Below, piece after piece: positions 60,656-64,000 of a DNA stretch of 64,000 bases. Every line of letters starts with the position of its first letter. Positions within the stretch are counted from its first letter, which is position 1. The position numbers and the translations under genes are program-made. The stretch covers positions 38,603-102,602 of the forward strand of contig NZ_JABRWJ010000015.1 in assembly GCF_013266755.1 (NCBI RefSeq), read 5' to 3'. The notes under the pieces were generated by a model. That model was not told the origin of the DNA. It was given only the letters and a program-made list of their open reading frames with translations, and did no database searches. The stretch is from Pseudaquabacterium terrae. GTDB lineage: Bacteria; Pseudomonadota; Gammaproteobacteria; Burkholderiales; Burkholderiaceae_C.

Positions 60656-60732
60656 GGGCCGTTAGCTCAGTCGGTTAGAGCAGAGGACTCATAATCCTTT
60701 GGTCGTTGGTTCGATCCCAACACGGCCTACCA
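60656..60732 (+). tRNA. tRNA with CAT anticodon (Met elongator or Ile2)
   Basis: A 77-nt cloverleaf: acceptor GGGCCGT/ACGGCCT (first pair G-T), discriminator A, encoded CCA (60730-60732), D-arm GCTC/GAGC, anticodon loop CTCATAA, T-loop TTCGATC. The anticodon-to-T-arm stretch CTTTGGTCG resembles tRNA-Ile2, whose C34 is lysidine-modified, as much as elongator Met. Sequence alone does not settle it. Not an initiator: it lacks the three G-C pairs in the anticodon stem. Confidence 0.9.
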
Positions 60733-60956: not shown

Positions 60957-63625
<2,669 letters not shown>

Positions 63626-63648
63626 CTCACTTCATCTCACACAAAAGA

Positions 63649-63800
63649 ACGGTGACCAGGATCGATGAAACGTCACTCCGCCATCCATTGCTGGACCGGG
63701 ATTCGGACCCGGGCGCCCCACGCATCGCTGCGAAGGGCACGCGCCGGCCCTCGAGGAGCCAGCGCGTGCGTCTACCTGTAGTTCCATCTGCATTCACCGC
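63649..63800 (-). ncRNA. Y-RNA-like structured RNA, unit 2 (next to rtcB)
   Basis: About 152 nt. The base pairs as outer helix GCGGTGA/TCACCGT (63800-63794 with 63655-63649), internal loop ATGCA against GATCCTGG, and inner helix GATGGAAC/GTTTCATC (63788-63781 with 63671-63664). Inside: a 12-bp hairpin GCACGCGCTGGC/GCCGGCGCGTGC, a T-arm-like stem-loop CCGGG-TCCGAAT-CCCGG (63712-63696) and a GCAA-capped hairpin TCCA/TGGA (63695-63684) in the place of the acceptor stem. Its T-loop has C where tRNAs have T55, so the tRNA likeness is weaker than in unit 1. CTTTT follows the helix. Confidence 0.72.
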
Positions 63801-63946
63801 AAAAAATGGTGCCTCGTTGCGACAAGGGTTGGTGAAACGATCGTGCTCTACCGGACTGAGCTACGGTCCCCCTGATGTGGGACCGGCGGGATTTGAACCC
63901 GCGACCACGAGCTTAAGAGGCTGTAGTTCCACCTGCATTCGCAACG
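63801..63946 (-). ncRNA. Y-RNA-like structured RNA, unit 1, with a circularly permuted tRNA fold
   Basis: About 146 nt. Outer helix CGTTGCGA/TCGCAACG (63946-63939 with 63822-63815), internal loop ATGCA against AACCCTTG, inner helix GGTGGAAC/GTTTCACC (63933-63926 with 63838-63831). Enclosed tRNA-like part, in order: stem strand TCGT (63910-63907), T-arm GCGGG-TTCAAAT-CCCGC (63902-63886), acceptor strand CGGTCCC (63885-63879), loop ACATCAGG, acceptor strand GGGACCG (63870-63864), TA, D-arm GCTC-AGTCCGGTA-GAGC (63861-63845), stem strand ACGA (63844-63841). All tRNA hallmarks are present but the 3' half comes first. A T6 run ends it (63806-63801). Known bacterial Y RNAs carry tRNA-like domains; the identity here is inferred. 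Confidence 0.8.
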
Positions 63947-63951
63947 CGACA

Positions 63952-64000
63952 TCAAAACAAACGCGACAAGGGACGGCAAGACGTTTTGCCAGTGCCGGTT
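63952..64000 (-). ncRNA. 3' end of a further Y-RNA-like unit, cut by the window edge
   Basis: On the minus strand, GTCTTGCC (63982-63975), GTCCCTTG (63974-63967), TCGCG (63966-63962), then TTTGTTTT. The 8-8-n layout and the CCCTTGTCGC core match the 3' side of unit 1, so this is probably the closing strand of a third RNA. The 5' side lies beyond base 64000. Confidence 0.55.

Follow-up and report, generated by a model that had tools for sequence, protein, structure and literature searches.

Why should a bacterial RNA-repair locus keep several structured RNAs of differing shape ahead of its ligase gene? The question is raised by the window, the whole 64,000-nucleotide stretch of Pseudaquabacterium terrae DNA analysed here (G000:C7:38603-102602), whose last base, 64000, is also the end of its contig, C7. 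The first-pass annotation had described a tandem array of Y-RNA-like RNAs at this end, directly upstream of rtcB. Both rtcB and rtcA do follow the array, and the Y-RNA reading gains support from one unit that exceeds the Rfam YrlA cut-off, as well as from a Ro60-type stem common to all units. Our preferred answer, which we regard as probable, is that the two complete units and a further one cut by the contig end are alternative adaptors, offering a shared stem to Rsr while differing in their tRNA look-alike heads.

Layout of the operon and its second copy

On the minus strand, the order toward rtcB is the cut unit C, unit D and unit E, followed by rtcB, an RlaP remnant and rtcA.

63959-64000, minus strand: unit C, 3' part, cut at the contig end; of the type with a T arm and a capped mini-helix
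63815-63946, minus strand: unit D, a YrlA, with a Ro60-type stem and the head order T arm, capped acceptor, D arm
63648-63801, minus strand: unit E, with a Ro60-type stem in the D loop of a predicted permuted tRNA-like fold, and a long variable arm
62396-63625, minus strand: rtcB, RNA ligase (Pfam PF01139, 428.7 bits)
62025-62336, minus strand: RlaP remnant, 486 bp shorter than its C18 counterpart and reading in frame into rtcA
60957-62024, minus strand: rtcA, RNA 3'-terminal phosphate cyclase (NF003246, 419.3 bits; TIGR03399, 362.8 bits; PF01137)

The PF10127 match of the RlaP remnant is limited to the first 49 of the 249 profile positions. A tRNA-Met gene (60656-60732) follows closely on the 3' end of rtcA, on the opposite strand; locus L047 likewise has a tRNA-Met gene past its operon.

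Units D and E both form the Ro60-type stem of outer helix, 5/8 internal loop and inner helix that had been claimed for them. The shared element GAATGCAGRTGGAACTACAG occurs on the minus strand at 63940 and 63795 with 19 of 20 positions identical, and the change between the inner helices, GGTGGAAC/GTTTCACC and GATGGAAC/GTTTCATC, is a genuine compensatory G-C to A-U swap. The array stems exceed chance: with a plain helix scan run over all of the window, from 302 ATGC starts on one strand and 346 on the other, a score of 12.5 was reached by only two units, both of the array. The cut third unit carries the expected loop strand, CCCTTG, but an array of three understates the case, this unit being one of five. 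The suggested search with the Rfam YrlA model (RF02553) succeeded for unit D, which scored 76.8 bits at 63813-63945, over the cut-off of 69. Unit E, for which a different tRNA-like topology, overlooked earlier, is predicted, reached 30.6 bits, and unit C, as preserved on a second contig, 29 bits, likewise under the cut-off.

That contig, C18 (19.9 kb), carries the operon again, at 95.9-96.8% identity to the window over 60962-64000 except for a 486-bp stretch, and without any difference at 63947-64000. Its array comprises five units, A to E, and runs on into rsr. Pfam TROVE proved misleading as the sole test for Ro60: the profile found no matches in the genome, while rsr on C18 is detected both with PF25045 and in a direct search by protein. 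The Ro60 gene anticipated beyond base 64000 is out of reach on C7, which stops at that base, but it does stand upstream of the same array on C18 and in Aquabacterium humicola (G003; loci L039 and L046). The latter encodes an intact Rsr of 532 amino acids together with four units, A to D. The C18 product is 94% identical to it and has the Pfam Ro60 vWA domain, but relative to A. humicola its gene contains a 13-base gap that breaks the frame. The histidine described in PMC4030889 as the Y-RNA contact of animal Ro60, H187, aligns with Rsr H183 (the number was counted by eye) and is invariant (8/8). In C18, A. humicola and a further relative, G034, rsr, array and rtcB are co-directional.

This arrangement resembles the Salmonella rsr-yrlBA-rtcBA operon, in which a Ro60-like gene, Y RNAs, rtcB and rtcA are likewise co-directional (PMC7790460). 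It differs in the number of different units, up to five in the window's genome, and in the presence of RlaP between rtcB and rtcA. In C18 and A. humicola a tRNA cluster also lies upstream of an HNH gene and rsr, with 23 tRNA genes in the former (L038 12504-16397) and 17 in the latter (L039 12374-14474). A further difference concerns RtcR, through which the Salmonella operon is reported, in the same paper, to respond to cyclic-phosphate tRNA fragments. The first-pass annotation had proposed looking for this regulator past the contig end. A PF06956 search of the genome returned no matches, with a positive E. coli control, and RtcR was not found in A. humicola either; four of 60 relatives have it, including G034, where rtcR lies beside the operon.

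Each operon copy is without part of a different gene, RlaP being short in the window and rsr gapped in C18. Such losses are what one would see in a decaying remnant, a duplicated operon whose copies shed parts and whose units are functionless here while functional in relatives. The window RlaP, 486 bp shorter and running into rtcA, the 13-base gap in rsr, the RtcR not found in the genome and the Ro60 vWA domain found in just three of the 60 relatives searched are all consistent with this account. Since the window's own rsr would lie past the contig end and that of C18 is broken, a functional Ro60 partner for the array may be missing from this genome. The comparison of the two copies argues otherwise: it shows 7 changes over the 286 positions of units D and E and 45 over the 1230 of rtcB, and, judged by eye from the folds, six of the seven are located in loops or preserve a pair. 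The remaining change, at 63649, affects the terminal pair of the outer helix of E, which is G-U in the window and mismatched in C18. Moreover, both the 13-base gap and the shortened RlaP could have arisen in assembly, where two near-identical copies meet. Decay is possible but, in our judgement, rather unlikely.

The predicted fold of unit E

If the units are working adaptors, they would present different heads. The head of unit E can be read from 5' to 3' as follows, between the two sides of its stem.

63768-63776, minus strand: 3' half of the D arm (GGTAGACGC), with stem ACGC at 63771-63768; coordinates counted from the sequence
63713-63767, minus strand: extended hairpin with a 5-nt loop in place of the anticodon arm, then the variable-arm hairpin, from RNAfold and consensus
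63696-63712, minus strand: T arm, with loop TCCGAAT
63684-63695, minus strand: acceptor mini-helix TCCA/TGGA with GCAA closure
63678-63681, minus strand: 5' half of the D-arm stem (GCGG)

Closed by GCAA, the acceptor has no free 3' end. The same order recurs throughout a curated set of 40 type E units, comprising 38 from named rsr loci together with those of the window and C18. The head starts with GG-TA and the D-arm 3' half and ends with the D-arm 5' half; between them stand a hairpin, a long variable arm (in one subtype), the T arm and a loop-capped mini-helix. We predict from these folds that type E corresponds to a circular tRNA opened in its D loop, with the Ro60 stem inserted there.

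Covariation supports this model to differing degrees in its different parts. RNAalifold, with no structure supplied, returned the Y stem, split D arm, extended hairpin, T arm and capped acceptor in both alignments, A2 (37 pairs, 26 changed on both sides) and A3 (40 pairs, 23 changed on both sides). Cells were paired at 96.5% in A2, against 76.6% when shuffled and 34-52% when slid, and at 97.5% in A3, against 88.2% and 35-46%, respectively. The D arm itself is nearly constant within alignments: three of its four pairs are invariant in A2, the fourth varying in two close relatives only, and all three are invariant in A3. As the variation lies between subtypes and hardly within them, support for this arm comes from comparing subtypes. 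Its halves fall into three matching types, GCTC/GAGC (20 units), GCGG/ACGC (18) and GCGC/GCGC (2), and form 142 of 160 pairs, whereas re-dealt halves formed 112.1 on average and 127 at most in 5000 shuffles, a contrast to be read knowing that two of the four pairs were favoured from the outset by the patterns with which the halves were picked, and that the shuffles ignore relatedness.

Tertiary positions are in keeping with a tRNA-like elbow. Pair 15-48 is G-C in 36 of the 40 units and A-T in four (L088, L096, L100 and L108, with both main D-arm types represented twice), with no mixed pair, while A14 is present in 40/40 and A58 in 38/40. U8 and C56 were imposed by the search patterns and so provide no evidence for type E. 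The marks of a functional tRNA, a 7-nt anticodon loop and a free acceptor 3' end, are absent: the loop replacing the anticodon loop measures 3-6 nt in every one of the 40 curated cellular units, and the acceptor is closed by a loop.

Unit D has the YrlA head order of T arm, acceptor and intact D arm, with the Y stem at the place of the anticodon arm; unit E does not, its D arm being split and its stem standing in the D loop. YrlA is described in PMC11472068 as circularly permuted relative to tRNA. Unit D, with its 5/8-loop stem, T arm, closed acceptor and D arm, adjoining rsr/rtcBA, is a member of this family. Unit E differs from it in being permuted in the D loop rather than the anticodon arm, and in carrying a variable arm and, at the position of the anticodon arm, a substitute hairpin. 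The RF02553 cut-off was likewise reached by none of 11 E units from ten named loci. Model R1, which was built from the other E subtype and holds no sequence of the window's subtype, nevertheless matches the window's E at 65.5 bits (E-value 1.2e-16), within the 61-74 bits of type E units of that subtype. Type D scores up to 61 bits, unit D of the window 54.6, and the C18 counterpart of unit C (L038 9905-10008) 45.4. Because R1 also matches type D, its score alone does not separate the two.

An assignment of the window's E to any one tRNA was considered and rejected: rearranged into tRNA order, it matched the genome's tRNAs at best with 42.5, compared with a mean of 35.7 and a maximum of 46.5 in 200 shuffles. 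Circularly permuted tRNA genes (PMC3978253) also contain tRNA parts in permuted order, but E is without an anticodon loop, has a closed acceptor, stands on a Y stem and gives no sign of tRNA-making. Y-RNA arrays beside Ro60 and rtcBA are already known, as is tRNA mimicry by bacterial Y RNAs. In the literature covered by our search, outside the main Y-RNA papers, a single permutation is described, that of YrlA. Type E is thus an apparent new Y-RNA variant, for which we make no claim of first report.

Head types across rsr loci

Relatives were compared at 80 named rsr loci, the best 80 of 154, which were picked by their rsr. All 80 feature Y-RNA units downstream of rsr, numbering one in 1 locus, two in 12, three in 16, four in 27, five in 20, six in 2 and seven in 2. 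The refined scan behind these counts detected 301 units on the gene strand at a threshold of 12.5 and none on the reverse strand, in shuffled sequence or in rsr coding sequence; at a laxer threshold of 11 the respective numbers were 314, 8, 3 and 9.

Five head types were distinguished among the 307 units of these loci (best 80 of 154): D (85), C (74), B (60), E (51) and A (37). Type A has no tRNA arm, B has a tiny loop and no tRNA arm, C has a T arm and a capped mini-helix, and D is YrlA. The rules are rough, some E units having first been classed A or C, and the 51 E units comprise 38 assigned by rule and 13 through R1 matches checked by eye; similarly, the third unit of L081, classed C by rule, is YrlA by Rfam. 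The current Rfam model detects one of the five types only. Type D occurs in 72, type E in 48 and both side by side in 45 of these 80 loci (best 80 of 154), and in all 36 E-bearing loci within L046-L111 the array ends with E. A second tRNA mimic, separately built on the same stem, thus accompanies YrlA in over half of the loci compared.

The arrays extend beyond the neighbourhood of rtcB. In 13 rhizobial-type loci (L112-L121 and L123-L125), tblastn did not find rtcB in the stretch examined, yet rsr and several Y units, type E among them, are present all the same. Within the window's own class, R1 matched four of 369 genomes at an E-value of at most 1e-8, the window's genome included, with 50.9 bits as the best score elsewhere; this search applied strict filters and scored nine candidates per listed genome. 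Weak YrlA matches in 28 of 60 relatives, three of them over the cut-off, are likely tRNAs and were left uncounted, since seven of 14 controls also matched. One relative, G025, has a contig (C12) that starts inside an array before rtcB (L042 1-390); the Ro60 domain was not found in that genome.

E-like units also occur in two of the 45 rsr loci on viral contigs, L151 (2800-2931) and L163 (2749-2903). Both have a 5-bp, 7-nt anticodon-type hairpin, with the loop CTCCTAA in L163. The minimum-energy fold contains the split D arm in L151, and pairs the same part otherwise in L163. With two cases only, these units are possible intermediates.

How the array would work

We propose that the units are transcribed together with rsr, rtcB and rtcA, and that the stem of each is bound by Rsr. 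Over L038 9400-13200, a scan for sigma-70-type promoters found no promoter-like sites, and terminator-like sites numbered 4 against 2.7 expected. In the predicted folds, the head of E is joined to the Y stem at its D loop and that of D at the position of the anticodon arm, and both heads have an acceptor closed by a small loop and no anticodon loop. In D the Ro60 ring would accordingly be held at the anticodon pole, in E at the corner of the elbow; the tRNA-like elbow would recruit elbow-recognising proteins, and the two units would show one elbow from opposite sides within the adaptor set of a single Ro60 ring. With both working ends absent, the heads could act while staying out of translation and escaping cleavage by anticodon nucleases.

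For YrlA, the stem is reported to tether Rsr, and the tRNA-like head to bind PNPase and to undergo modification by DusA and TruB (PMC8394870). Ten of the 40 E units, including that of the window, have C at position 55 and hence no TruB site. The repeated presence of a second mimic beside YrlA suggests that the elbow of the tRNA, rather than its anticodon or acceptor end, is likely the wanted part. More broadly, we lean towards the view that a Ro60-binding stem was grafted onto tRNA twice, at the anticodon arm in YrlA and in the D loop in E, yielding a genomic adaptor kit with opposite holds on the elbow and with neither anticodon nor acceptor end in cells, the E-like units of the two phage-type contigs retaining an anticodon-type arm of 5 bp and 7 nt. 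D and E of one array would make paired RNAs for testing what the head recruits. A role for the outer helices in preventing crosstalk among units was rejected, as they are no more distinct within an array than by chance (3.50 vs 3.51 of 6 pairs).

The heads might instead be decoys that, under damage, compete with tRNAs for the nucleases, toxins or modification enzymes acting on tRNA, Ro60 serving chiefly to keep these RNAs stable. Retention of the elbow and loss of both working ends in D and E would suit this role too, and YrlA, uncut by anticodon nuclease, has been suggested as its competitive inhibitor by Hughes et al. 2020 (PMC7790460). There are also tRNA genes close by: besides the cluster in C18, clusters of at least five tRNA genes lie upstream of rsr, within the flank examined, in six of the 80 named loci (best 80 of 154), namely L046 (the same place as L039), L047, L051, L053, L054 and L055. 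However, bait for an anticodon nuclease should display an anticodon loop, which all 40 cellular E units are without, and the same stem occurs, within the same arrays, in types A and B, whose heads contain no tRNA arm. We consider decoys an unlikely explanation and retain that of alternative adaptors. That E is an ordinary YrlA with a merely mis-aligned head is very improbable: although RF02553 aligns it from end to end and it has a stem, a T arm and overlapping R1 scores in common with D, no intact D arm follows its T arm, the halves of that arm are separated by the rest of the head and are paired with each other in the consensus folds that RNAalifold gave unprompted for two alignments, and the two types are neighbours in one array at 45 of 80 loci (best 80 of 154).

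Annotation pipelines may mislabel such Y-RNA arrays. ARAGORN calls of tRNA-Leu, tmRNA and tRNA-Asp, as well as Rfam calls of tRNA, fall at Y units or in their neighbourhood, the sites being L059 8094-8186, L102 8193-8429, L108 7831-7907 and L053 8098-8156.
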